From: Adlercreutzia faecimuris
GTDB taxonomy: Bacteria; Actinomycetota; Coriobacteriia; Coriobacteriales; Eggerthellaceae
DNA: 64,000 bases
Assembly (NCBI RefSeq): GCF_022669055.1
Contig: NZ_JAJMLW010000001.1
Span: forward strand, 248,001-312,000
Reading direction: 5' to 3'
This document shows, in pieces, positions 22,448 through 34,926 of this stretch (positions are counted from its first letter, which is position 1; each line of letters begins with the position of its first letter). A model generated the notes under the pieces. The model did not search any database. It saw only the letters and a program-made list of their open reading frames with translations, and had not been told where the DNA came from. A program made the translations under genes and the position numbers.

Positions 22448-23548
22448 CTAGGAGAGGCGCACGGGCATGACCAGGTACAGGAAGTTCTCAGGCGCCTCGG
22501 CGCGGAAGATGCCGGGCTTGAGCGACGACTGCACCTCCAGGAACACCCGCTCGGTGGTCACCGACTGCAGGCCGTCCAGCACGTAGGCGTAGTTGAACGC
22601 GATCTCCACGTCCTCTCCCTCTATCTCGCAGGGCAGCGTCTCCTGGGCGGATCCCACGTCCTGCGACGCCGCCGATATCTGGGCGGTCTGCGACGCCATG
22701 TTCAGGTCGAAGCGCACCGGGGACGCGGTCGACCCCAGGATGGAGGCGCGCTTCACGCCGGCGATCAGGCGGTCGACCTCCAGGGTCGCGCGGGTCGTGT
22801 AGGCATCGGGGAGCAGCTGCTTGTAGTTGGGGAAGTTGCCCTCGATGCGGCGATTGATGAAGACGGTATCCTCGCAGGTCACGACGATCTGGTTCTCGGC
22901 CAGGGCGAGCGTGACCGGCGACTCGGTCTTGGGCAGCGAGGCGATCTCCTGGAGGAACGAGCCCGCGATGACCGCCTGGAACGGGTCGGCCGACGCGTCC
23001 CCGAGCACGGCCTCGGTGATGGCCAGGCGGTACGAGTCGGTGGCCACCATCCGCAGCAGCCCCTCCTCCAGCGTGATGAGCACGCCGGTGAGGATGGCGC
23101 GGCTCTCGTCCTTCGACACCACGCGCGCCACGCGGCGCACCATGGCGGCGAACTGGGCGAAGGGGATCTCTATGCGCTGGGTCACGTCCACGGCGGGGAA
23201 CCCGGGGAAGTCCTCGGAGTTGAGCGCCTTGATCGAGAACGACGACGTGTCACAGGTGATGAACGCCTGATCCTCGCCGGCGTCCACATGCACGGCCGCG
23301 TCGGGCAGGTTCTTCACGATATCGGAGAACAGCTTGCCCGGCACCACCGCCTTGCCCTCCTCCTCGACGAGCGCGGCGACCGAGTACTGGATGGACAGCT
23401 CCAGGTCGGTGGCCTGCAGGGTGAGCTTGTCGCCGTGGGCCTCCAGCAGGATGCCCGACAGCACGGGCAGGGTGGATCGGGTGGACACGCCCTTCAAGAC
23501 GATGGAGATGGCGTTCTGTAGCTCCGTGCGGTTGATGCTGAATTTCAA
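22448..23548 (-). CDS. dnaN: DNA polymerase III beta sliding clamp
   Basis: 366 residues, the usual size. Starts MKFSINRTELQNAISIVLKGVSTRST, has three clamp repeats and ends YLVMPVRLS, the conserved C-terminal strand. Transcribed leftwards away from the origin, divergent from dnaA rather than directly downstream of it as in many Gram-positives. Confidence 0.98.
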   Translation of the reverse strand: MKFSINRTELQNAISIVLKGVSTRSTLPVLSGILLEAHGDKLTLQATDLELSIQYSVAALVEEEGKAVVPGKLFSDIVKNLPDAAVHVDAGEDQAFITCDTSSFSIKALNSEDFPGFPAVDVTQRIEIPFAQFAAMVRRVARVVSKDESRAILTGVLITLEEGLLRMVATDSYRLAITEAVLGDASADPFQAVIAGSFLQEIASLPKTESPVTLALAENQIVVTCEDTVFINRRIEGNFPNYKQLLPDAYTTRATLEVDRLIAGVKRASILGSTASPVRFDLNMASQTAQISAASQDVGSAQETLPCEIEGEDVEIAFNYAYVLDGLQSVTTERVFLEVQSSLKPGIFRAEAPENFLYLVMPVRLS

Positions 23549-24297
23549 GGCGTCCCTCTTCCCTCGCGCGCCGGATGACCGCCCCCTCCCTCGGCCAGGG
23601 CGCGGGAAGGGGTGGAAAGCCGGTGATTATTCTTCTGAACCAGGGCCATTATAGGCGAGGCGGGCCCCTCCTGACGCGGCGGGGCAAGGCTCCTTCCCTA
23701 CCGTTCGGCGGGATGTCAGGTGCTTTTCCACTTTTTTCTCCCACCGGTTTGTGGAAAATGTTGAAAACTTCGCCGAAAAGGCATCTAAACGGGCGTTTCT
23801 CTGAAAACCATGGTGCAAATCTTAGAACTGGCCATGACTAACAGTTTTCGCCATGTCATCTTCCCTTATGAGGTCGATCTTAAGAAAATACCGTTTGAAC
23901 AGGCATTATGTAATAAATTATCCTATTGATGATCGTTTCCATCCCCTTTTTCCACGACGATGGCGAACAAAAGGGCGTTTATATCCCGAGGGCGCGTCCT
24001 CAACCTGCAGAAACCCTACTAAGGGTAAAAGTCAAGGAAATTCTTCCCTAGTTTTTCACATCGGCTTCCCGTTTTCCCTCTTTTCCGATTCACGGTTTTC
24101 AGCGTTTTCCACTTTCTATGAATAAATTGTTGATAACTTCGAAAACAGCAGGTCACAACCGTTCATAATTCATGAATCGTCGAATATCCTGCTTTTCAAC
24201 CGACGAAAGCGCAGGTGGGCTAGATTTAGGTCGGTGAATAACGGTAAAATGCCCTTGGAATTTCCTGAAAACGCTGAATAATCGAAGAAAAACTGGA
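23549..24297. other. oriC: oriC candidate: AT-rich region with DnaA-box-like 9-mers
   Basis: 749 bp between divergent dnaN and the ATPase-HTH gene, clearly richer in A/T than its surroundings (strongest 23860-24300). DnaA-box-like 9-mers: TTTTCCACT (23724), complement of TTTTCCACA (23750-23758) directly followed by complement of TTTTCAACA (23759-23767), TTTTCCACG (23948), TTTTCCACT (24105) and complement of TTATCAACA (24128-24136). Gene orientation switches here from minus to plus, as expected at an origin. No parS site is present. A 90-residue frame at 23853-24125 looks non-coding. Confidence 0.85.
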
Positions 24298-25389
24298 ATG
24301 ACCTTGAATAACGCTGAACCACATACCCTCGCCGAGCCTCCCGCAGGCGAGGATCCCTACGCCTTCGACTTCACCTTCGTCCCCACCACCGCGCGCATCG
24401 CCCTCTACGACGATCTGCTCAGCGCGCCGCGGGTCATCGAGGTCAAGCCGGCCGAGACCACCCAGTACATCGAGAGCCTGGCCTCGACCGTCTACGAGCA
24501 GGCGCGCCAGGCCGGCGGGTCGATCCCCTACACGGTCATCCGCGAGGTGTCGGAGAACTTCATCCACGCGCGGTTCCGCGAGATCATCGTCTCGGTGCTC
24601 GACGCGGGCAACACCATCCGCTTCGCCGACCAGGGTCCCGGCATCCCCTACAAGGATCAGGCGCAGAAGCCCGGGTTCTCCTCGGCCGTCGAGCCCATGA
24701 AGAAGTACATCCGCGGCGTGGGGTCGGGGCTGCCTATCGTGCGCGACTACCTGGACGTGTCCCACGGCAACATCACCATCGAGGACAACCTCGGGCGCGG
24801 GTCGGTGGTCACCATCAGCGTGACGCCGCACCCCTCGGCGCCGCCGGCAGGCGCGATGGCCGCGGGCTACCAGCCCCAGGTCGCACCGGGCACCACCGGC
24901 TACCCCGTCGGCGGGGCGACGAGCGCGATGCAGCCGAACAGCGCCTACGGGGCGCAGCCGACGATGGCCGGCTACGGCGCCGACCCCCGCCAGCAGGCCT
25001 ATCCGCAGGCCATGGCGTTCGACGCCTACGGCAACGCCATCCCCGCCGGGGCGGCCGGGATGCCCGCGGCGGCCTATGGGGCACCGAGCTCCTACCCCGT
25101 TGCCAGCGTCCCCGCGCAGGCCCAGCCCTGGGGAACGCCCGCCGCGGCCGCGCCGGCGCGCGTCCAGTCACTCGCCCCCCACCTGTCCGAACGGGAGCAG
25201 GACGTCCTGCGCCTCCTCTACCAGGATGGCGAGCTCGGCGTCACCGAGATCAGCCACATCCTCGAGGCGGCCCCGTCAAGCGTGCACAACGCGCTCAAAA
25301 AGCTCGAGCAGGCCGCACTCGTCATGAGCGGCCAGAACAAGAAGCGCCGCCTGACCGACCTCGGCGTGGCCGTGGCCCAGACCATCTAG
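24298..25389 (+). CDS. GHKL-type ATPase domain fused to winged HTH, next to dnaA
   Basis: 363 residues, not identified with a named gene. Residues 60-175 form a histidine-kinase-like (GHKL) ATPase fold: N-box-like SENFIHARF (85-93), DQGPGIP (111-117), GSGLPIV (142-148) and a final GRGSVVTISV strand. There is no phospho-acceptor domain, so it resembles anti-sigma-factor-type ATPases. A long Ala/Gly/Pro/Tyr/Gln linker (180-285) leads to a C-terminal helix-turn-helix (about 290-363; LSEREQDVLRLL, GVTEISHILEAAPSSVHNALKKLE) with MarR/BlaI-like architecture. It sits between the AT-rich origin and dnaA, same strand, so it could link ATP/ADP sensing to initiation. That role is inference. Confidence 0.8.
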   Translation: MTLNNAEPHTLAEPPAGEDPYAFDFTFVPTTARIALYDDLLSAPRVIEVKPAETTQYIESLASTVYEQARQAGGSIPYTVIREVSENFIHARFREIIVSVLDAGNTIRFADQGPGIPYKDQAQKPGFSSAVEPMKKYIRGVGSGLPIVRDYLDVSHGNITIEDNLGRGSVVTISVTPHPSAPPAGAMAAGYQPQVAPGTTGYPVGGATSAMQPNSAYGAQPTMAGYGADPRQQAYPQAMAFDAYGNAIPAGAAGMPAAAYGAPSSYPVASVPAQAQPWGTPAAAAPARVQSLAPHLSEREQDVLRLLYQDGELGVTEISHILEAAPSSVHNALKKLEQAALVMSGQNKKRRLTDLGVAVAQTI

Positions 25390-25401
25390 CCTCGGCGCGC
25401 T

Positions 25402-25429
25402 TTGCCGGCGCGCCCCACTTATATACAAT
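25402..25429 (+). promoter_or_regulatory. probable dnaA promoter
   Basis: TTGCCG (25402-25407), 16-bp spacer, TACAAT (25424-25429) in a TATATACAAT context, about 75 bp before the dnaA ATG. GC-rich inverted repeats (CCCCGGGGCC-like, 25431-25470) lie in the leader and may fold. Confidence 0.55.
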
Positions 25430-25504
25430 AGGCCCCGGGCCCCAAGCAGCCGGGGCGCCGGGGAGCGCCGCGGGTTCGGCGCCCATGCGGGAAGAGGAAA
25501 GCCT

Positions 25505-27073
25505 ATGGACAGCGGAAAGCTCAACGAGAACTGGAACGAGGTCTGCAACCTCGTCTGCGGCTATGAGGGCGTGGAGCCCTCCCAGTTCAAGGCCTTCTTC
25601 TACCGCCTGCAGCCCCAGGCCATGAGCGAGGGCTTCCTCATGCTCACGACCGACAACGAGTTCATCAAGACCTGGGTGGAGCGCCACTACATCGAGCTCA
25701 TCCGCCGTGCGCTTTCCCAGCTGCACCAGGGCGTGCCGTTCATGGTGGCCATCGAGGTCGACCCCTCGGCCGCCGCCGCGGCCGGTGCCGTGGCGGCTCC
25801 CCAGCCCTCCGCCGCGAGCCCGTTCCCGGCGCCGGTGGTCTCCCAGCCGATCCAGCCGGCCGTCCCGGCCGCCGCACCTGTCGCCGCCCAGCCCGACGCC
25901 TACCAGCCCACGGACTCGCCGATGCCGGCTGCTCCCGTTGCCGAGGAGCCGCGGTCGTTCCCGCCGCTCGACTTCCCCACCCCCGGCGTCACCGCCGCGC
26001 ACGCCCCGATCCCCGAAGGCCCGTCGAGCGCGCTCACCTTCGAGAACTTCGTCATCGGCGACTCCAACCGCATGGCCTACTCCATGGCCGTCAACGTCGC
26101 CGAGCAGCCAGGCTCCACGCCGCTCAACCCCCTGTTCATCTACGGCAAGAGCGGGCTGGGGAAAACCCATCTCATGTTCGCGATCCAGAACTACATCCGC
26201 GAGACGCAGCCTCAGCTGCGCACCGTCTACGTCGACTCGTCCGACCTGCTCGCCGACTACATGGAGGCCGGCGCGGCGCACGACAAAGAGAAGTCGAGCT
26301 ACAAGAACTTCAAGACGCGCTATGAGGAGGCCGACGTTCTCCTCATCGACGATATCCAGTACCTCCAGGGCAAGAAGCAGACCCTCGACATCGTCTTCCA
26401 GATATTCAACAGCCTCATCGGCCAACGCAAGCAGATCATCCTGTCGGCCGACCGCGCGCCGAAGAACATCGACATCGACGAGCGCTACCACTCCCGATTC
26501 AGCCAGGGCGGTACCGTCGACATCCAGCCGCCCGAGATCGAGACGAAGCTGGGGATCGTAAAGTCGTTCATCGACGAGTACAAGCGCAACGAGGGCCTCG
26601 ACCACTTCGAGGTGCCGCAGGACATCCAGATGTTCATCGCCGAGAGCTCCAGCTCCAACATCCGCGAGCTCAAGGGAGCCGTGACCAAGGTCATCTACCA
26701 GATGACCGTCTTCCAGCAGACCGACCTCACCGTCAACGACGTGCGCACCCTGCTCGAGAACCACTTCTCGGGCGGCGCATCGCGCAACCTCTCCATCGAG
26801 GACATCCAGAAGGAGGTAGAGGCATTCTACAAGGTCAAGCACTCTGAGATGGTGAGTAAGAGCCGCGCACGGAGCATCGCCTACCCGCGCCAGATCGCCA
26901 TGTACCTGTGCCGGCAGTTCCTCGACATGCCCTTCGCCGCTATCGGGAAGAAGTTCGACCGCGACCACAGCACGGTCATGCACTCGGTGGCCCAGATCGA
27001 GAAGATGATGCAGCAGAACCGCGACGTGCAGGAGGAGGTCGAGAACCTCAAGCAGATCATCCGCGAGATCTAG
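25505..27073 (+). CDS. dnaA: chromosomal replication initiator DnaA
   Basis: 522 residues. Domain I (1-85), a long Ala/Pro-rich domain II (about 90-175), AAA+ domain III with Walker A YGKSGLGKTHL and Walker B VLLIDDIQYLQGKKQT, and domain IV with the DnaA signature FDRDHSTVMHSVAQIEKM. The ATG has GAGGAAA upstream. It binds 9-mer boxes and melts the origin in its ATP form. It is on the plus strand 115 bp after the ATPase-HTH gene, and both have the same orientation as rpmH. Confidence 0.98.
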   Translation: MDSGKLNENWNEVCNLVCGYEGVEPSQFKAFFYRLQPQAMSEGFLMLTTDNEFIKTWVERHYIELIRRALSQLHQGVPFMVAIEVDPSAAAAAGAVAAPQPSAASPFPAPVVSQPIQPAVPAAAPVAAQPDAYQPTDSPMPAAPVAEEPRSFPPLDFPTPGVTAAHAPIPEGPSSALTFENFVIGDSNRMAYSMAVNVAEQPGSTPLNPLFIYGKSGLGKTHLMFAIQNYIRETQPQLRTVYVDSSDLLADYMEAGAAHDKEKSSYKNFKTRYEEADVLLIDDIQYLQGKKQTLDIVFQIFNSLIGQRKQIILSADRAPKNIDIDERYHSRFSQGGTVDIQPPEIETKLGIVKSFIDEYKRNEGLDHFEVPQDIQMFIAESSSSNIRELKGAVTKVIYQMTVFQQTDLTVNDVRTLLENHFSGGASRNLSIEDIQKEVEAFYKVKHSEMVSKSRARSIAYPRQIAMYLCRQFLDMPFAAIGKKFDRDHSTVMHSVAQIEKMMQQNRDVQEEVENLKQIIREI

Positions 27074-27433
27074 CGGCCGACGGGCGTCGATTCCCGGCGG
27101 ACAACCCGCTCAAAACCGCCGTTTTTTTCCACTGCCTGTGTGCAATGATAAAACCGGCGATAAAACCCTGTGGAAGACGCCTACTCTCCTTCAACCGTCT
27201 GCCATCACATCTTTTCAGAACCCATCAGGCCCTTTCCTTCTTTTCCACCATTCAACCGAGCTTATTATTACCATTATTCCTTTCTCTTCTTATCTTAGGC
27301 ATTGAGGAAGGTGCCATCCCCTCAGTGGAATCCCTCTTCGTTTTCACCGTCGAGCCATAAATTGCCCGTTGACACCCCACTTCCCGGGTATATAATTTGG
27401 AAGTTACTCTTTGAATATGAAAGGGAAAATACG
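27074..27433. other. AT-rich dnaA-rpmH spacer with a second set of DnaA-box-like sites
   Basis: 360 bp, pyrimidine-rich on the plus strand. Contains TTTTCCACT (27125), complement of TCTTCCACA (27169-27177), TTTTCCACC (27241) and the rpmH promoter. Together with 23549-24297 this could form a two-part origin flanking dnaA. No gene is seen. Confidence 0.6.
27369..27396 (+). promoter_or_regulatory. rpmH promoter
   Basis: Near-consensus TTGACA (27369-27374), 16-bp spacer, TATAAT (27391-27396), 37 bp before the rpmH ATG. It is the strongest-looking promoter in the window and probably drives rpmH-rnpA-yidD-yidC. Confidence 0.85.
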
Positions 27434-27568
27434 ATGAAACGCACCTACCAGCCCAACACCCGCAAGCGCGCCAAGTGCCACGGCTTCCGCGCCCGCATGT
27501 CCACCAAGGCCGGCCGTGCCGTCCTCTCTGCCCGTCGTGCGAAGGGCCGCAAGCGTCTCTGCGTCTAA
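27434..27568 (+). CDS. rpmH: 50S ribosomal protein L34
   Basis: 44 residues, [20 protein letters not shown] to the end RLCV. Standard L34 apart from the C-terminal Cys and CHGF in place of the more usual VHGF. First gene of the rpmH-rnpA-yidD-yidC cluster. Confidence 0.98.
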
Positions 27569-27582
27569 CCGGAGGCTGTCCG

Positions 27583-27942
27583 TTGGATACCATAAAATCC
27601 AGCGCTGACATATCCCACCTCTTCTCCACGGGGAGGCGCCAAAAGACCCCCTACCTCACACTCATCATCGGTGAGGGGCCGAAGGAGGCATCGCGACACG
27701 ACCGCCCGGGTCGTGTCGCTTTTATTGCGGGGAAGAAGCTGGGTAACGCCGTGTGGCGCAACGCGGCCAAACGGCGCATGAGGGAGGTCTGCCGCGCGCT
27801 CGGCGGCCCCTGGCCCGGCTACGATGTGATATTTCTCGCGAAGTCATCCCTTACCGACGCGTCTTATAGTAAAGTGCTAAAGGCGTGTGACAAGGCGGTC
27901 GCCGGGTCGTGTCTCGGTGAGGCGGAGGAAGGGCGTGGATAA
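27583..27942 (+). CDS. rnpA: ribonuclease P protein component
   Basis: 119 residues if translation starts at the TTG at 27583, which lies 7 bases after GGAGG (27571-27575), in the short gap after rpmH. An ATG further upstream in frame would overlap rpmH and is not favoured. The family core GNAVWRNAAKRRMREVCR is present, although the usual RNR motif reads RNA here. It assists the RNA subunit in 5' tRNA processing. It overlaps the start of yidD by 8 bp. Confidence 0.93.
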   Translation: MDTIKSSADISHLFSTGRRQKTPYLTLIIGEGPKEASRHDRPGRVAFIAGKKLGNAVWRNAAKRRMREVCRALGGPWPGYDVIFLAKSSLTDASYSKVLKACDKAVAGSCLGEAEEGRG

Positions 27943-28177
27943 GGTGCGCGGGGCCCTCGTTCGGGTTCCCTCCCTGATGGCCATCGGGTTCATCCTGTTC
28001 TATCGGGCGGCCATATCGCCGCTATTCCCCTCCTGCTGTCGCTTCGTTCCCACGTGCTCGGAATACGGACTCACCGCCTTCCGCCGCTACGGGTTCCGCA
28101 AGGGGCTCGTCCTCACGGTGAAGAGGCTGATGAAGTGCCATCCGGGTGGGCCGCACGGCTACGACCCCGTTCCCTAG
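27935..28177 (+). CDS. yidD: membrane protein insertion efficiency factor YidD
   Basis: About 80 residues from a GTG at 27935 that overlaps the rnpA stop. Diagnostic ISPLFPSCCRFVPTCSEYGLTA and CHPGGPHGYDPVP. A small membrane-associated protein that helps YidC/Sec insertion. An earlier ATG at 27887 would add 16 Arg-rich residues inside rnpA; the GTG has a better-placed GGAGGA. Confidence 0.92.
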   Translation: MDKVRGALVRVPSLMAIGFILFYRAAISPLFPSCCRFVPTCSEYGLTAFRRYGFRKGLVLTVKRLMKCHPGGPHGYDPVP

Positions 28178-28222
28178 GGGCCGCAGGCGTCTCCCCTCCC
28201 CGCGATGTAGAAGGGAATGTTC

Positions 28223-29002
28223 ATGTGGGAAGTATTTAAGGACTGGATATTCAACGCTATCGAGTTCTTCTACAACTTCTGCGGTGACTGGGGCCTGGCC
28301 ATCATCATCGTCACCATCATCTTCCGCGTCATCCTGGCTCCGCTCATGCACAAGCAGGCGAAGTCGAACTACCAGATGCAGAAGATCCAGCCGAAGATCG
28401 CGGCGATCCAGCAGAAGTACGCCGACGATCAGGTTCGCCAGTCCCAGGAGATGCAGAAGCTCTACGCCGAGGCCAAGTTCAACCCGCTGGCCGGCTGCGT
28501 GCCCATGCTTCTCCAGATGCCCATCTTCATCGCGCTGTTCCAGACGCTGCGCGAGATGGGCTCCCGCCCCGAAGTGGCGGGCGACTTCACCTTCTATAAC
28601 ATCGTACCTAACCTCACGATGACCCCTGCTGATGCTTTTGCCGGGGGTTTTGGAACGTTTGTTCCTTATTTGGTGCTGATGATCATCTTCGCCGGCGCCA
28701 CCTTCCTCCCCATGGTTCTCATGCAGATGAAGAGCGAGAACACCCAGCAGAAGAACCAGACCCTGATGATGGCCGGCGTCATGAGCATCTTCATGCTGTG
28801 GATCTCCTGGACGTCTCCCGCCGGCGTGCTCCTCTTCTGGGGTACCTCCTCGCTGATCGGCATCGCCCAGCAGCAGGGCAGCCTGGCGATCTGCCGCCGT
28901 GCCGATGCCCGTGCCGCCGAGGCCGAGGTCATCGAGGTCAAGCCGGTTGAGGTCAACGTCACCCGCAAGGTGAAGAAGCCCCGCCCGACCAAGAAGCGCT
29001 AG
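28223..29002 (+). CDS. yidC: membrane protein insertase YidC
   Basis: 259 residues, short Gram-positive form (Oxa1 type) with five membrane segments. Hydrophilic-groove Arg in TIIFRVILAPL, cytoplasmic hairpin (MQKIQPKIAAIQQKYADD), NPLAGCVPMLLQMPIFIALF, and a basic C-terminal tail (KVKKPRPTKKR) for ribosome contact. The ATG at 28223 is preferred over 28217 because of spacing from AGAAGGG. A lower-GC stretch (28611-28680) encodes the periplasmic loop. A parS-containing terminator follows. Confidence 0.95.
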   Translation: MWEVFKDWIFNAIEFFYNFCGDWGLAIIIVTIIFRVILAPLMHKQAKSNYQMQKIQPKIAAIQQKYADDQVRQSQEMQKLYAEAKFNPLAGCVPMLLQMPIFIALFQTLREMGSRPEVAGDFTFYNIVPNLTMTPADAFAGGFGTFVPYLVLMIIFAGATFLPMVLMQMKSENTQQKNQTLMMAGVMSIFMLWISWTSPAGVLLFWGTSSLIGIAQQQGSLAICRRADARAAEAEVIEVKPVEVNVTRKVKKPRPTKKR

Positions 29003-29022
29003 CGCCCAACCTTGTAGAACGG

Positions 29023-29059
29023 AGGAGTGTTTCACGTGAAACACTCCTTTTGTTTTATC
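29023..29059 (+). terminator. parS-stemmed terminator after yidC
   Basis: A 26-bp perfect palindrome (29023-29048) with parS 29028-29043 as its core is followed by TTTTGTTTTAT. It lies 20 bp after the yidC stop and has the form of an intrinsic terminator built from a centromere site. Confidence 0.65.
29028..29043. other. parS: parS, exact
   Basis: Core of the terminator-like hairpin after yidC. First site on the right of the parS-free core. Confidence 0.94.
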
Positions 29060-29088
29060 CAGAATGTTTCACGTGAAACATTCTGGAT
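29057..29088. other. parS: parS, exact, in a 32-bp palindrome
   Basis: The 16-mer is 29065-29080, 37 bp after the previous site and 41 bp before khpB. Confidence 0.94.
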
Positions 29089-29121
29089 CCGGAAGCTCCG
29101 ATTCAATCTAAAGGAGAGACC

Positions 29122-29712
29122 ATGGAAGAGGAACTGGAAGTGACTCCCGTCGAGGAAACCGAGGCCGTTGAGGCCGACACTGCGTCCGACGCGCCCTCTG
29201 AGGCTGCCGCATCGGCCGCTGCCGCCGACGGCGAGCAGGAGATCACCGATGAGATGCTCGACAACATCGCCGACACTGCCATCGCCGCGCTGCAGGACAT
29301 CCTGAAGTACTTCAACGTCGGCGAGGTCACCATCGACGAGTACGAGGGTGATGAAGGCGAGCTGATCCTCGACATCACCGGCGATGACCTGGCCGTGCTG
29401 ATCGGCCGCCACGGCAAGACACTCGATGCCCTGCAGTTCCTGGTGTCCGCCATCACGGTGCGCACCATCGGCTTCCGCTACCCGGTGGTCATTGACGTCG
29501 AGGGCTACAAGAGCCGCCAGCGTCAGAAGCTGGAGTCTATCGCCCGCACGAGTGCGAACCGCGCCGCCAGCCAGCACCGCAGCATCAAGCTGCGTCCGAT
29601 GACCCCCTACGAGCGCCGTATCGTCCACATCGCCCTGCGCGATGACGATCGCGTCGAGACCGCATCCGAAGGCGAGGGCAGCGCCCGCCACGTCGTGGTG
29701 ATTCCCCTCTAG
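29122..29712 (+). CDS. khpB: KH-R3H RNA-binding protein (KhpB/Jag)
   Basis: 196 residues. An acidic N-terminal region (1-45) replaces the Jag-N domain, then a KH domain (about 50-125; VLIGRHGKTLDALQFLV) and an R3H domain (about 130-196; RPMTPYERRIVHIALRDD). KhpB/Jag proteins bind RNA with KhpA and affect cell division and elongation. Conserved position after yidC. RBS AAAGGAG. Two parS sites lie just upstream. Confidence 0.93.
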   Translation: MEEELEVTPVEETEAVEADTASDAPSEAAASAAAADGEQEITDEMLDNIADTAIAALQDILKYFNVGEVTIDEYEGDEGELILDITGDDLAVLIGRHGKTLDALQFLVSAITVRTIGFRYPVVIDVEGYKSRQRQKLESIARTSANRAASQHRSIKLRPMTPYERRIVHIALRDDDRVETASEGEGSARHVVVIPL

Positions 29713-29738
29713 GCAAAACCGCCATCAAAGCAAAGCAA

Positions 29739-29781
29739 AGCAGGGCCAGAAAGTGAATTCCTGGCCCTGCTTTTTTTTTTT
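29739..29781 (+). terminator. terminator after khpB
   Basis: AGCAGGGCCAG pairs with CTGGCCCTGCT around an 11-nt loop and is followed by 11 T residues. A strong classical intrinsic terminator, placed directly before the five-parS array. Confidence 0.95.
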
Positions 29782-29789
29782 CTGCGGAA

Positions 29790-30012
29790 TGTTTCACGTG
29801 AAACATTCAGGCCTGTTGGTATCCCTCCCTTGTACCTTCCCCTCTTCTCATGCGCTAGAAATGTTTCACGTGAAACATTCCGTTTGTCGATCTCGCTCGT
29901 ATGTGCTTCAAAATGTTTCACGTGAAACATTTTCTTTCCGAAGAGCCGTTAGAATGTTTCACGTGAAACATTCTGCCTCCCTTAGAGCGTATGAAATGTT
30001 TCACGTGAAACA
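29790..30012. repeat. array of five parS sites upstream of rsmG
   Basis: Exact 16-mers at 29790, 29862, 29914, 29955 and 29997, with start-to-start spacings of 72, 52, 41 and 42 bp. This is the densest group in the window. The intervening DNA is not repeated. The 317-bp gap 29713-30029 is otherwise filled by the khpB terminator and the rsmG ribosome site. Confidence 0.97.
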
Positions 30013-30029
30013 TTTCGAAGGAGGAATCC

Positions 30030-30689
30030 GTGGAAAACGCTGAGCTGATCGATCGCTACCTTGATCTCATCCTGGAAGAGAACAAGACTACCAATCTGAC
30101 GCGAATCGATTCTAAGGAAAAGGCCCGCATCCTCCATATTGAAGACTCTCTCGTTGCTCTGCCGGAGGTGAACCGGGCGCCCGAGGGGCTCTACGGGGAT
30201 CTCGGCACCGGCGGAGGATTCCCTGGATTTCCCATCGCCGTGGAGACGGGCCGCAAGGCTATCCTCGTCGATTCAGTGAAGAAGAAGACGGCAATTGTCG
30301 AAAGATGTGTTGATAAGCTCGGAATGAGCGATCGAATATCCACTTTCAGTGGAAGGATAGAGGATTTAGCCCGAGAAATGCCCGGTAAGTTCTCTGTTCT
30401 CACCGCTCGGGCGCTTTCCCAGCTTCCCTCCCTGCTGGAACTGGCCTCTCCTCTCTTGAAAAAGGGAGGCCTTTTCGTGTGCTACAAGGGAGAGGCATCG
30501 CCTGAGGAGGAAGAAGCCGCCAAGAAGGTGGCGAAGAAGGTGGGGATGACCCTCGTATCTAAGAGATCTCTGATCCTCAGCGACGGAGAAACTCACCGTG
30601 AGATCTTCCTTTATGAGAAAACCGGTAAGCCTACGGTAAAGCTTCCTCGTCGCGTTGGTATGGCGCAGCATAAGCCCCTGATCGACTGA
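30030..30689 (+). CDS. rsmG: 16S rRNA (guanine527-N7)-methyltransferase
   Basis: 219 residues from a GTG start with AAGGAGG 5 bases upstream. GidB signature: TNLTRI, DLGTGGGFPGFPIAV (SAM-binding), VDSVKKKT, FSGRIED and TARAL. Basic C-terminus. It methylates 16S rRNA; its conserved place is beside parA-parB. The last parS of the array ends only 5 bp before the ribosome site, so it lies in the promoter or leader. Confidence 0.95.
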   Translation: MENAELIDRYLDLILEENKTTNLTRIDSKEKARILHIEDSLVALPEVNRAPEGLYGDLGTGGGFPGFPIAVETGRKAILVDSVKKKTAIVERCVDKLGMSDRISTFSGRIEDLAREMPGKFSVLTARALSQLPSLLELASPLLKKGGLFVCYKGEASPEEEEAAKKVAKKVGMTLVSKRSLILSDGETHREIFLYEKTGKPTVKLPRRVGMAQHKPLID

Positions 30690-30693
30690 AAAA

Positions 30694-30709
30694 TGTTTCA
30701 CGTGAAACA
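30694..30709. other. parS: parS, exact
   Basis: Starts 5 bp after the rsmG stop; AAAA/TTTT flanks. Confidence 0.93.
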
Positions 30710-30724
30710 TTTTCCACACCTGAT

Positions 30725-30740
30725 TGTTTCACGTGAAACA
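30725..30740. other. parS: parS, exact
   Basis: 31 bp after the previous site, the closest parS pair in the window apart from 33699/33723. Confidence 0.93.
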
Positions 30741-30767
30741 GTCACTCGAGAGCGCTGTTTCCTGGGA

Positions 30768-30783
30768 TGTTTCACGTGAAACA
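30768..30783. other. parS: parS, exact
   Basis: Third of three sites between rsmG and the DUF559 gene. Confidence 0.93.
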
Positions 30784-30995
30784 CTCCGAATAGGGCTTTA
30801 AAGCAGCTTTCATGCTGCCCCCACGCGTCTTTCGTGACGCTCAGGAGGGGCGGGGGCGACGCTTTCTACCCGTCATGACCCGTAGGGGGCCTGGAAATGC
30901 TGTAATGGGGGCACCATAGCTGCACCGCTCTGCGAGCGCTCTCGCGTCGCTGGGCGCGATTATGATCTTCTTGTTGCCATGGAGAGGAGACCATA

Positions 30996-31403
30996 ATGAC
31001 GAAGAACCGTAGACAGGTGTTGGCAGAGCGCGCCCAGCGGATGCGGCGTGAGATGACACGTCAGGAACGGAAGCTGTGGTATCAGTTCCTTAAAACTTAT
31101 GAGTTCTCCTTCGTCACGCAGAAGGTGATGGGAAACTATATCCTCGACTTCTACTGTAAGAAGCTCCACCTCAGCATTGAGCTTGACGGATCCCAGCATT
31201 TCGAGCCGCGGGCGCTGCGCTATGACCAAATCAGAACTACTTTCCTGGAGACAGAGGGAATCAAGGAGTTGCGCTTCACCAACCGTGACATCGATGAGAG
31301 CTTCGAGGGGGTGTGCGAGATCATCCATCAGGAGGCCCAGAAGAGACGCCCGGATGCGCGACAGTTCCAGTTTGACTTCATGAGGCTGCTGGAAAAGAGC
31401 TGA
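30996..31403 (+). CDS. DUF559 (Vsr-like endonuclease fold) protein
   Basis: 135 residues. Matches DUF559: MTRQERKLWYQFLKTYEFSF, YILDFYCKKLHLSIELDGSQHF, FTNRDI. The D-x-E-x-D like residues in DFYC...ELDGSQH suggest a very-short-patch-repair-type nuclease fold, but activity is unproven for the family. RBS GGAGAGGAG. It interrupts the usual rsmG-parA neighbourhood, so it could be a later insertion. The 212-bp gap before it holds only small hairpins and parS sites. Confidence 0.85.
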   Translation: MTKNRRQVLAERAQRMRREMTRQERKLWYQFLKTYEFSFVTQKVMGNYILDFYCKKLHLSIELDGSQHFEPRALRYDQIRTTFLETEGIKELRFTNRDIDESFEGVCEIIHQEAQKRRPDARQFQFDFMRLLEKS

Positions 31404-31428
31404 TTTCCCTTCGATGTCTGCTACTCGT

Positions 31429-31460
31429 CGTGAAAATGTTTCACGTGAAACATTTTCACG
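31429..31460. other. parS: parS, exact, in a 32-bp palindrome
   Basis: The 16-mer is 31437-31452; first of three sites before parA. Confidence 0.94.
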
Positions 31461-31508
31461 CGTAGCTCGTCTATAATCACTGATCAATTCCACGTTGAGG
31501 TGCCAGAA

Positions 31509-31524
31509 TGTTTCACGTGAAACA
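31509..31524. other. parS: parS, exact
   Basis: Second of three sites before parA; CAGAA/TTCTG flanks. Confidence 0.94.
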
Positions 31525-31567
31525 TTCTGCGGCCATTTTCTCGCCTTCATTCTTCTGATAGGAACAC

Positions 31568-31593
31568 CAAAATGTTTCACGTGAAACATTTTG
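31568..31593. other. parS: parS, exact, over the parA promoter
   Basis: The 16-mer is 31573-31588, in a 26-bp palindrome immediately before the -10 TATACT of parA. Confidence 0.94.
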
Positions 31594-31600
31594 CTATACT
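31573..31600 (+). promoter_or_regulatory. parA promoter overlapping parS
   Basis: -10 TATACT at 31595-31600. The -35 position (16-bp spacing) falls in the parS site 31573-31588, where only TGTTTC is present. ParB binding here would be expected to affect parAB transcription; that is inference from the overlap. Confidence 0.6.
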
Positions 31601-31627
31601 CTGAGCGATTTGAGAAAGGGGTTAGAC

Positions 31628-32590
31628 GTGGGCTTGTTAGACGGTCTGAAGCGGGAGAAGCCCGAGGAGGAGGCGCCTGTTCCCAGCGTTGCCTCGTCTC
31701 CTGACGACTTTGACGTAGAAAATGCGGAGGTGCTGGTGAGAGAGCCGGCTCCCATGGTGGTTGACCAGGCGGACAAGAAGCCGATCAAATCCTATAAGGA
31801 CAAGGCTCCGGTGCGCCATGTGGTCGGACAGACCAAGGTGGCGGCGATCATCAATCAGAAGGGTGGCGTGGGGAAGTCCACCACGGCCATCAACCTCTCG
31901 GCGGCGTTGGGGGCCATGGGGAAGCAGGTGCTCCTCGTCGACCTTGATCCTCAGGGCAATTCATCCAGTGGTCTGGGCATTGAGAAGGCGAACGTCGAGA
32001 ACTGCATCTACGACGTGCTCTTGAATGATGTCCCCATTGAGGAAGTCATTATCCCCGACGTGTGCCCCGGCTTGGATGTGGCTCCTGCTACCATCAACCT
32101 AGCCGGCGCCGAGGTCGAGCTGGTATCTGAGATGGCGCGTGAGAACCGCCTGAAGGACGCGGTGGGCACCATGCGGGGCAAGTATGACTTCATCTTCATC
32201 GACTGCCCACCCTCCCTGGGCCTTCTGACAGTCAACGCGCTGGTCGCGGCTGATAAGCTGCTCATTCCCATCCAGTGCGAGTTCTACGCACTCGAGGGCG
32301 TGACAAAACTTCTCGATTCGATGAAACGTGTCAAAACGCGCCTTAATCCCACGCTGGATATCTATGGCGTGCTTCTCACCATGTACGACGGCCGCACCAA
32401 CCTGTCCTTGCAGGTGGCTGAGGAGGTGCGGAACTACTTCGGCCGTGCCGTGTTCAAGACGGAGATCCCGCGCACGGTCAAGCTTTCCGAGGCTCCGAGC
32501 TTTGGACAGCCTATTACCGAGTATGAACCCAAGGGCAAGGGTGCTATTGCCTACATTGAGCTTGCGAAGGAAGTGATAAGCCGTGGCTAA
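31628..32590 (+). CDS. parA: chromosome partitioning ATPase ParA/Soj
   Basis: About 320 residues from a GTG at 31628, six bases after AAAGGGG; a TTG at 31610 is less well placed. An N-terminal acidic tail of about 70 residues precedes the ATPase: deviant Walker A QKGGVGKSTTAINLS, LVDLDPQGNSSSGLG, FIDCPPSLGLLTVNAL, IPIQCEFYALEG. The C-terminal DNA-binding Arg/Lys region is present. It drives origin segregation with ParB and the many parS sites. parB starts inside its end. Confidence 0.97.
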   Translation: MGLLDGLKREKPEEEAPVPSVASSPDDFDVENAEVLVREPAPMVVDQADKKPIKSYKDKAPVRHVVGQTKVAAIINQKGGVGKSTTAINLSAALGAMGKQVLLVDLDPQGNSSSGLGIEKANVENCIYDVLLNDVPIEEVIIPDVCPGLDVAPATINLAGAEVELVSEMARENRLKDAVGTMRGKYDFIFIDCPPSLGLLTVNALVAADKLLIPIQCEFYALEGVTKLLDSMKRVKTRLNPTLDIYGVLLTMYDGRTNLSLQVAEEVRNYFGRAVFKTEIPRTVKLSEAPSFGQPITEYEPKGKGAIAYIELAKEVISRG

Positions 32591-33641
32591 AGCGACGAAG
32601 GGCGGCCTGGGCCGTGGACTGAACTCCCTCTTGGGAGACTCTTACGATGAGGGAACCCCGGCACCTGCCCCGGCGCGTCCTGCTCGTCAGCGTGTGGTAG
32701 TGGAACCGGGTGAGATTCCGCAGTACGACCCCATTCTGGAGCCGCGAGATGTTTCACGTGAAACATTTTCCCCTGAGAAGGAGGAGCCGACGCCTGTTGA
32801 GCGTGAGGAGGCTTCTTCCGAGCACATCACCATCAAGGGGATCGTGTCCCGTAACGTGGATGAAGTGCCGATCGAGTGGGTGACCCCCAACCCGGATCAG
32901 CCGCGCACCCACTTCAAGCGCGAGGAGATCGAGGAGCTTGCGGCGTCAATCGAGAAGGACGGCCTGCTGCAGCCCATCCTCGTGCGCACGATGGGGAAAA
33001 ACGACTACCAGATCATCGCTGGCGAGCGTCGTTGGCAGGCTTGCAAGCTGCTCGGTGTCGAGAAGATTCCTGTGCGCATCAAGGATGTCGACGACGATCG
33101 TGCCCTCGAGCTGGCCCTAGTTGAGAACGTGCAGCGTTCCGACCTCAACCCCATCGAGGAGGCCTACGGCTATCGCCGCCTGATGGAGCGCAAGAACATG
33201 ACGCAGTCGGATGTGGCCCAGGCCATGTCGAAGGGCCGCTCTACTGTCGCCAATGCTCTTCGTCTGCTCGATCTGCCGCAGGATGCCCAGCAGCTGCTTT
33301 TCGAGGAGAAGATCACCGCTGGTCATGCTCGCGCTATCCTCTCCATCCCCAATAGCGAGGGCCGCGAGAAGCTCACCAGCAAGCTGATGGAGGAACGCCT
33401 CAACGTCCGTGAGACGGAGCAGCTGGCTCGCCTGCTGTCCGGTCGTCCCAAGGGTGAGGAAGCGCCGGTTCGCCAGCCGATGCCGGTCACTTACAAGCGC
33501 GTCGCCAAGGCCCTGCGTGATGTCCTCAAGACTAATGTGCGCGTGAGAACCAAGGGCGGGAAGAACAAGATTGAGATTGAGTTCCAAGATGAGGCGGAGC
33601 TGACCCGTCTTTTCGAGGAACTGCTTGCCTCGATTTCCTAG
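32583..33641 (+). CDS. parB: chromosome partitioning protein ParB/Spo0J
   Basis: 352 residues from a GTG overlapping parA by 8 bp. N-terminal GLGRGLNSLLG (ParA-stimulating peptide), CTPase motif AGERRWQA and ENVQRSDLNPIEEA, helix-turn-helix TQSDVAQAMSKGRSTVANALRLL that reads parS, and a C-terminal dimerisation domain. The disordered linker 20-95 contains VSRET (57-61), encoded by a parS site within the gene itself. Followed by a strong terminator. Confidence 0.98.
   Translation: MAKATKGGLGRGLNSLLGDSYDEGTPAPAPARPARQRVVVEPGEIPQYDPILEPRDVSRETFSPEKEEPTPVEREEASSEHITIKGIVSRNVDEVPIEWVTPNPDQPRTHFKREEIEELAASIEKDGLLQPILVRTMGKNDYQIIAGERRWQACKLLGVEKIPVRIKDVDDDRALELALVENVQRSDLNPIEEAYGYRRLMERKNMTQSDVAQAMSKGRSTVANALRLLDLPQDAQQLLFEEKITAGHARAILSIPNSEGREKLTSKLMEERLNVRETEQLARLLSGRPKGEEAPVRQPMPVTYKRVAKALRDVLKTNVRVRTKGGKNKIEIEFQDEAELTRLFEELLASIS
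32750..32765. other. parS: parS, exact, inside parB
   Basis: Read DVSRETF in the N-terminal linker of ParB. Confidence 0.95.
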
Positions 33642-33646
33642 TAACG

Positions 33647-33690
33647 CATAAAGAAAGGGCCCCGGCTTTGGTCGGGGCCCTTTCTTTATG
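33647..33690. terminator. bidirectional terminator between parB and rlmN
   Basis: A perfect 18-bp stem (CATAAAGAAAGGGCCCCG and complement) with an 8-nt loop. A/T-rich outer arms give a U-tract in both directions; it separates convergent parB and rlmN. Confidence 0.92.
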
Positions 33691-33698
33691 CAGGGGAA

Positions 33699-33714
33699 TG
33701 TTTCACGTGAAACA
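33699..33714. other. parS: parS, exact
   Basis: Between the parB/rlmN terminator and the rlmN stop; only 8 bp from the next site. Confidence 0.93.
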
Positions 33715-33716
33715 TT

Positions 33717-34769
33717 TCAGATTGTTTCACGTGAAACATTTTGGAGTGAGTTCTTCAGCTGTCCGCAGGCGCCGGCGATGTCCGAGCCGCGGGATCGTCT
33801 CATTGTGGCCTCGATGTGATGTTTACCAAGTGTGCTAATCCAGTGATCGGCGATGTAGCGAGGAGACGGCTGGAAGGGAGAGCCGGCGATTTTGTTCATG
33901 GGGAGCAGGTTCACGTGGCAGAGGAGTCCGTCGCAGAAGTCTAGCAGCGCCTGGAGGTCTTCCTCCCCATCATTGACACCCTTAATGAGGAGATATTCGA
34001 AGGACACGCGGCGGTTGGTCTTCTCGACGTAGTGTTTGAGGCTCTTCTTGAGAGAAGGAAGCGGCTGGTGAGAGACGCGGGGCATCAGCTGATCTCTCTT
34101 CTCCTGGATAGCCGAGTGCAGGGAAATGGCGAGGGTGAACTGCTCGGGCTCTTCGGCCAGCTGGTCAATCCCCGGGATAATGCCGCAGGTGGACACGGTG
34201 ATATGCCGTGCGCCGATATTGAACGAGTCAGCGGAGTTCGCCATGCGAAGGGCCTCGATGAGCGCATCGTAGTTGAGAAAGGGCTCACCTTGTCCCATGG
34301 CAACGAGATTAGTCACCCTGCGGCCGAAGTCACGCTCGACGAGGGATACCTGCTCCGTCATCTCATTGGCGGTGAGGTTGCGGCAGAAGCCCTCGCGACC
34401 TGTCGCACAGAACGCGCATTCCATGGCGCATCCCACCTGGGTGGAGAAACATACGGTCAGACGCTCGTCGTTCTCACCTGTCGGCATGGCGACGGTCTCG
34501 ACCATACAGCCGTCATGGAAACACACTACGTACTTCCTGGTTCCATCCTTGGAGACCTGGCGGTCGATCACCTCGCAGGTTGCGAGGGGGTAGTCTTGTG
34601 CGAGCTGAGCTCGGAAATCCTTAGGGAGGTTGGTCATCTCGTCATACGAGATGGCATGTTTTCCCACCAGCCACTCGTAGAGCTGCTTGGCACGGAATTT
34701 CGGCTGGCCATATCGTGAGGTCAGATCTTCAAGTTGGCTGAGGTTGTAGGTCTTTATCTCATTCATCAT
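33717..34769 (-). CDS. rlmN: dual-specificity RNA methyltransferase RlmN
   Basis: 350 residues. Radical-SAM cluster motif CAMECAFCATG, SAM-site GQGEPFLNYDAL, and C-terminal SRGSDIAGACGQL with the catalytic Cys. It methylates A2503 of 23S rRNA and A37 of tRNAs. The last seven residues, NVSRETI, are encoded by a parS site ending the gene, so the C-terminal tail is parS-derived. A TATAAT -10 lies at 34781-34776 on this strand, with parS 34803 at the -35 position. Confidence 0.97.
   Translation of the reverse strand: MMNEIKTYNLSQLEDLTSRYGQPKFRAKQLYEWLVGKHAISYDEMTNLPKDFRAQLAQDYPLATCEVIDRQVSKDGTRKYVVCFHDGCMVETVAMPTGENDERLTVCFSTQVGCAMECAFCATGREGFCRNLTANEMTEQVSLVERDFGRRVTNLVAMGQGEPFLNYDALIEALRMANSADSFNIGARHITVSTCGIIPGIDQLAEEPEQFTLAISLHSAIQEKRDQLMPRVSHQPLPSLKKSLKHYVEKTNRRVSFEYLLIKGVNDGEEDLQALLDFCDGLLCHVNLLPMNKIAGSPFQPSPRYIADHWISTLGKHHIEATMRRSRGSDIAGACGQLKNSLQNVSRETI
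33723..33738. other. parS: parS, exact (coding, rlmN C-terminus)
   Basis: Encodes the last residues NVSRETI of RlmN. Confidence 0.94.
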
Positions 34770-34775
34770 GCCGCC

Positions 34776-34818
34776 ATTATAGGCGACGGTGTGAGAGGAA
34801 AATGTTTCACGTGAAACA
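34776..34818 (-). promoter_or_regulatory. rlmN promoter with parS at -35
   Basis: Minus-strand -10 TATAAT (34781-34776), only 7 bp from the start codon, so the transcript would be nearly leaderless. The -35 position (34804-34799, 17-bp spacing) touches the parS site 34803-34818. Confidence 0.5.
34803..34818. other. parS: parS, exact
   Basis: Upstream of rlmN, touching its -35 position. Confidence 0.93.
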
Positions 34819-34846
34819 TTTGAACTTCAGAATGGGAAAAGCGCTC

Positions 34847-34874
34847 GCAAAATGTTTCACGTGAAACATTTTGC
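34847..34874. other. parS: parS, exact, in a 28-bp palindrome
   Basis: The 16-mer is 34853-34868, midway between divergent rlmN and ddl. Confidence 0.93.
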
Positions 34875-34900
34875 CCTGGTACAAGTGGAGGAAGTGGCCT

Positions 34901-34926
34901 AAGAATGTTTCACGTGAAACATTCTT
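34901..34926. other. parS: parS, exact, in a 26-bp palindrome
   Basis: The 16-mer is 34906-34921, overlapping the ddl -35 position. Confidence 0.93.

Follow-up and report, generated by a model that had tools for sequence, protein, structure and literature searches.

The gap between jag and rsmG of Adlercreutzia faecimuris contains five exact parS cores, and we interpret these as five probable loading sites for ParB within a chromosomal centromere that has undergone expansion. It is the scale of this expansion, rather than the five-site array, that is novel. The gap spans 317 bp (29713-30029; all positions are those of the window, the complete stretch of 64,000 nucleotides that was analyzed), and within it GTTTCACGTGAAAC occurs exactly five times, starting at 29791, 29863, 29915, 29956 and 29998. 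The start-to-start spacings of 72, 52, 41 and 42 bp and the extent of the outer 16-mers, which cover 29790-30012, reproduce the original prediction exactly. Common to all five sites is AATGTTTCACGTGAAACATT, each copy of which encloses one GTTTCACGTGAAAC, and 5/5 sites match without mismatch TGTTTCACGTGAAACA, the 16-bp palindrome of chromosomal parS. Every site is a perfect palindrome, with outer bases that differ among the sites: 22 bp in site 1 (29788-29807, core 29791-29804; GAATG...), 20 bp in site 2 (29860-29879, core 29863-29876; AATG...), and 24 bp in site 3 (29910-29933, core 29915-29928; AAAATG...), site 4 (29951-29974, core 29956-29969; AGAATG...) and site 5 (29993-30016, core 29998-30011; GAAATG...). 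The fifth 16-mer stops at 30012, 5 bp short of the rsmG ribosome site AAGGAGG (30018-30024), exactly as had been claimed, and rsmG starts with GTG at 30030.

With 5 sites in 221 bp, the array is the densest parS cluster of the window. When the 31 intergenic sites were scattered at random over the 9.7 kb of intergenic DNA in the window, the probability of five sites falling within 221 bp somewhere was 0.048, and that of some gap receiving at least five sites was 0.47; the clustering is only mildly unusual given the local intergenic density (p ~0.05). The sequence between the sites, originally described as unrelated, is so for most of the spacers, and the array is not a homogeneous tandem repeat; the exception is a weak similarity between the last two spacers (z 2.3). 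A search for DnaA boxes within the array found none, and a plasmid BLAST of the array region returned no match.

The array sites are almost certainly ParB sites of the chromosomal ParABS system, an identity borne out by the consensus, the neighboring parAB genes and the predicted oriC close by. On the plus strand, parA (31610-32590) lies 1.6 kb downstream of the array and overlaps parB (32583-33641). There is one canonical ParB, with ParB_N and HTH_ParB domains, in which the CTP-pocket motif GERRWQA was recognized by inspection and for which the best PDB matches are solved ParB/Spo0J/Noc proteins. In this protein family, the residues R173 and G201 are of the parS type, as opposed to the Noc-type Q173 and R201 (PMC7383237). 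Inspection of the alignment to solved ParB chains indicates that the host ParB keeps the R173- and G201-equivalent residues and, because the sites also have the parS core, the Noc binding site (NBS) was rejected as their identity. SMC is present in the genome. The ParB columns M215, N205 and A310 and the C-terminal EEL.A.S track high parS number, an association that is confounded with phylogeny.

The genes around the array are arranged in the order dnaN (minus strand), predicted oriC gap, HATPase gene, dnaA, rpmH, yidD, yidC, jag, rsmG, DUF559, parA, parB, rlmN and ddl. The assignments of dnaN, the HATPase gene, yidC, jag (khpB, with KH and R3H domains; 29122-29712, plus strand), rsmG (GidB; 30030-30689, plus strand), DUF559, parA, parB and rlmN were checked with Pfam; dnaA, rpmH, yidD and ddl are presumptive names, from position and resemblance. 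We place the predicted oriC at approximately 23549-24297, in the gap between dnaN and the HATPase gene and some 6 kb from the array, because the DnaA boxes of relatives cluster either in the dnaN gap or in the HATPase-rpmH gap and because a comparison of 22448-29712 with relatives shows that the orientation of the dnaA-HATPase-oriC block with respect to dnaN and rpmH is reversed in some lineages of the family compared to others. The local GC-skew minimum at 29-31 kb of the window was not used for this placement, given that the DnaA-box clusters of the relatives indicate the dnaN-side gap. The gene beside dnaA and oriC (24298-25389), which encodes a HATPase_c domain and a MarR-like HTH, is conserved. 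Another minor feature of the locus is a DnaA-box-like word, TTTTCCACA, at 30710-30718, between the parS sites at 30695 and 30726 in the rsmG-DUF559 gap.

The window contains 39 exact parS sites and 42 matches at no more than two mismatches, against 0.08 expected, so these sites are not due to chance. Across the 2.79 Mb genome, we found 114 exact parS and only 6 further copies at one mismatch, which implies that the copies are kept intact. The density peaks in the 5.9 kb from yidC-jag to rlmN-ddl (29029-34920), where 19 sites are located. The 14 of these that surround rsmG-parA-parB besides the array include two sites in the yidC-jag gap (29029 and 29066; 29029-29079), three in the rsmG-DUF559 gap (30695-30782), three immediately upstream of parA (31438-31587), two at the convergent ends of parB and rlmN (33700-33737) and three between rlmN and ddl (34804-34920). 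Two sites fall in coding sequence, one at 32751 in the N-terminal linker of parB (DVSRETF) and one at 33724 in the 3' end of rlmN (NVSRETI). Over 264 kb surrounding the origin, 56 of the 67 sites are intergenic and about 87% of the DNA is coding, according to genes called by a simple codon-usage script that places gene edges approximately. The intergenic density declines from 4.1 per kb within 10 kb of the predicted oriC to 0.4 per kb beyond 90 kb. In a relative with 150 sites (G201), whose rsmG-parAB genes at the end of the contig adjoin its start, the density is 160 per Mb at that start and drops to about 20 per Mb, its floor, across most of the chromosome.

The class was represented by 396 genomes, and those with more than 13 parS all belong to Eggerthellaceae; the other families have 0-6 sites. 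The maximum outside Eggerthellaceae among 296 genomes of the phylum is 33, in large genomes of 6-10 Mb that, judging by size and count, resemble Streptomyces. Within the family, the nearest named relative, Enterorhabdus sp. P55 of the same genus, has 129 parS; the genus that includes Eggerthella sinensis (g8) has 110-150 (135 in G070), Rubneribacter 110-127, Gordonibacter 28-82 and Enteroscipio 49. Judged by its topology alone, a tree of rsmG, ParA and ParB places the high-parS state at three or more positions, separated by low-parS lineages. The low-parS relatives, among them Adlercreutzia and Slackia, share the jag-rsmG-parA-parB order and the parS sites between rsmG and parA but differ in having only about 2-8 sites per genome and a jag-rsmG gap that is usually empty: parS is present in the rsmG-parA gap in 48 of 56 low-parS relatives and in the jag-rsmG gap in 14 of 56. 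All 14 high-parS genomes that were scored have parS in both gaps. These counts indicate that the rsmG-parA gap, within which the three rsmG-DUF559 sites of the window fall, is the ancestral place of parS and that the array, beside this older core, is derived and specific to its lineage. The array is conserved neither in position nor in number, as the jag-rsmG gap of relatives contains 0-4 sites, usually 0-2 (2 in P55, 3 in L002 and 4 in L011). Dense parS clusters recur around rsmG-parAB in other high-parS genomes; P55 has six sites downstream of rsmG, at spacings of 45, 44, 44, 44 and 40 bp, and Candidatus Gordonibacter avicola has six downstream of parB.

If the array functions as the sequence suggests, one ParB dimer would bind each palindrome, take up CTP, close as a clamp and slide into the neighboring DNA, and the departing clamp would free the parS for the next dimer. 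With 19 loading sites in 5.9 kb around parAB, the array being the densest patch, a high local density of ParB would be expected; ParA would pull this dense ParB and so move the origins, and ParB would also load SMC. Because the gap is sealed by the jag terminator, transcription from upstream should not strip the array. ParB bound at the array probably represses rsmG as well. More sites need not improve function, however, given that in Bacillus subtilis extra SMC loading sites cause SMC collisions and disturb arm alignment and folding (PMC8357415).

The original prediction went further and suggested that the array may be the main ParB nucleation centre, with its last two intervals close to four helical turns. 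A single dominant centre, in which four-turn spacing gives cooperative loading, seems to us quite unlikely. The array does have the top local density in the window, and its 41- and 42-bp intervals fall within the 40-49 bp at which the spacing of adjacent parS peaks across relatives, but pooled adjacent pairs up to 130 bp show no 10.5-bp periodicity (Rayleigh p 0.53), on which ground we rejected a helically phased binding array. Moreover, the array lacks conservation, and relatives have arrays of equal density in other gaps, such as the six sites downstream of rsmG in P55; 14 other sites lie within 6 kb, and it is between rsmG and parA that low-parS relatives keep their sites. Nucleation at the array as part of a core centered on rsmG-parAB is plausible. 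Still less probable is the possibility that parS has spread as small repeats, either dispersed or duplicated in tandem, that have little function. Eggerthella-type genomes do contain a dispersed element, about 60 bp long, that carries two parS 34 bp apart. The arrays of L001 and L010 contain decayed 44-bp tandem units, and the spacers in P55 and L010 are alike (z up to 4.3), as would be expected of such units. However, the paucity of one-mismatch copies argues for active maintenance, the parS density is centered on the origin, and the spacers of the arrays in the window are mostly unrelated. Tandem duplication, supported in L001 and L010, was mostly rejected as the source of this array.

Somewhat more weight, although we still consider it unlikely, can be given to the possibility that the intergenic palindromes double as RNA hairpins or terminators, with parS recruited into, or growing into, hairpins at transcript ends. 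The bases 4-9 outside the core are complementary beyond shuffling in tandem (0.407 vs 0.281, z 9.1), convergent (0.481 vs 0.276, z 11.4) and divergent gaps (0.406 vs 0.266, z 5.5), whereas coding DNA shows no excess (0.315 vs 0.323, z -0.3). This test included 371 unique sites; those that are orthologous between related genomes do not count as independent, but within single genomes z is still 2.9-3.5. Control intergenic palindromes are barely extended (z -0.3 to 2.8), and Streptomyces-like sites show a smaller excess of flank complementarity. Overall, parS density decreases from convergent (2.27 per kb) to tandem (1.31) to divergent gaps (0.82); in the host genome alone, it is the tandem gaps that have the highest density. 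A sense T tract accompanies 23 of 184 tandem sites compared to 3 with an A tract, sense G-U pairs slightly exceed A-C pairs (p 0.008), and the jag terminator of L002 (7183-7488), itself a perfect palindrome, has a parS at its tip and is accompanied by a T tract. Against a role in RNA, a T tract is missing at most sites, and at no fewer than four of the five in the array, and the AT-rich stems of the array sites are of low stability (-6.6 to -13.9 kcal/mol), unlike the GC-rich stem and T tract of an intrinsic terminator. Furthermore, template-switch correction during replication would yield the same covariation without function, and avoidance of promoters alone would produce the positional bias. 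Template-switch palindrome correction and selection for RNA hairpins are both possible sources of the flank symmetry. The location of intergenic parS within individually extended palindromes, a few of which are terminator-like, is a new observation. We retain ParB loading within an expanded centromere as the favored reading of the array.

The jag terminator, immediately ahead of the first array site, is a strong inverted-repeat hairpin followed by a T run (29737-29781, plus strand; -25.1 kcal/mol for 29732-29790) and is the sole terminator from a scan of 29600-30200, where it is listed on the minus strand. Downstream, a candidate -10 box of parA, TATACT (31595-31600, plus strand), is located 7 nt past the parS at 31574-31587. 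This geometry is conserved: it is present upstream of parA in the window, P55 and L002 and upstream of rsmG in Eggerthella, Rubneribacter and another genus; loci or genomes with the arrangement upstream of parA or rsmG include L001, L002, L007, L018, G030 and G070. The geometry would place the -35 region within parS, so ParB is expected to repress such promoters. The arrangement of parS, 7 nt and TATACT as a promoter is new here. The proposal that any rsmG promoter lies within or between the parS sites gains indirect support from the jag terminator and from the TATACT boxes 7 nt past parS in relatives, but at rsmG of the window itself no TATACT box was found upstream and the array scan gave no sigma-70 match.

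Most bacteria have fewer than five parS sites. Published accounts put chromosomal parS numbers at one to 20 (PMC10197239). The highest count that we found in the literature is 65, in one Streptomyces, where this number was called remarkable, and the published Streptomyces mean is 22.8 (PMC8743542). Streptomyces resembles the host in being actinobacterial and in having numerous consensus parS that surround oriC and parAB, some in close arrays, but the Streptomyces-like genomes in our sample have 8-33 exact parS per 6-10 Mb compared to 114 in 2.79 Mb in the host and up to 150 in its relatives. The parS/Spo0J system of Bacillus subtilis shares the 16-bp palindrome, the CTP-clamp ParB family and SMC loading and differs in having few sites (8-10), mostly isolated. 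A search of the open-access literature, the coverage of which is incomplete, found no published report of parS expansion in Eggerthellaceae. The presence of 114 parS in the host genome and of up to 150 in relatives challenges current ideas on the tolerable number of sites. Tentatively, and with considerable doubt, we suggest that in several lineages of Eggerthellaceae the centromere might have been repeatedly rebuilt as a chromosome-wide field of 50-150 perfect parS, located at transcript ends in site-specific extended palindromes, such that ParB would serve as a clamp loader in intergenic DNA throughout the genome, organizing the whole chromosome and bordering transcription units. If so, the behavior of SMC must depart from the low-flux rule of Bacillus. 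In genera of the human gut, Eggerthella and Gordonibacter among them, exact parS number roughly 30-150, with many far from the origin, and these genera offer a natural test of the coexistence of ParB clamps with SMC traffic and transcription.

Two minor observations concern closely spaced parS. A Streptomyces-like genome contains four parS spaced by 22, 22 and 21 bp (G651:C7:512852-512930). The element of about 60 bp mentioned above has the structure CGAAT-parS-ATTCGTTCGCGCAAACARAT-parS, with the two parS exactly 34 bp apart, and occurs in G201 (L204-L207), G070, G138, G030 and G359; it is found far from the origin and is a possible vehicle of parS spread.
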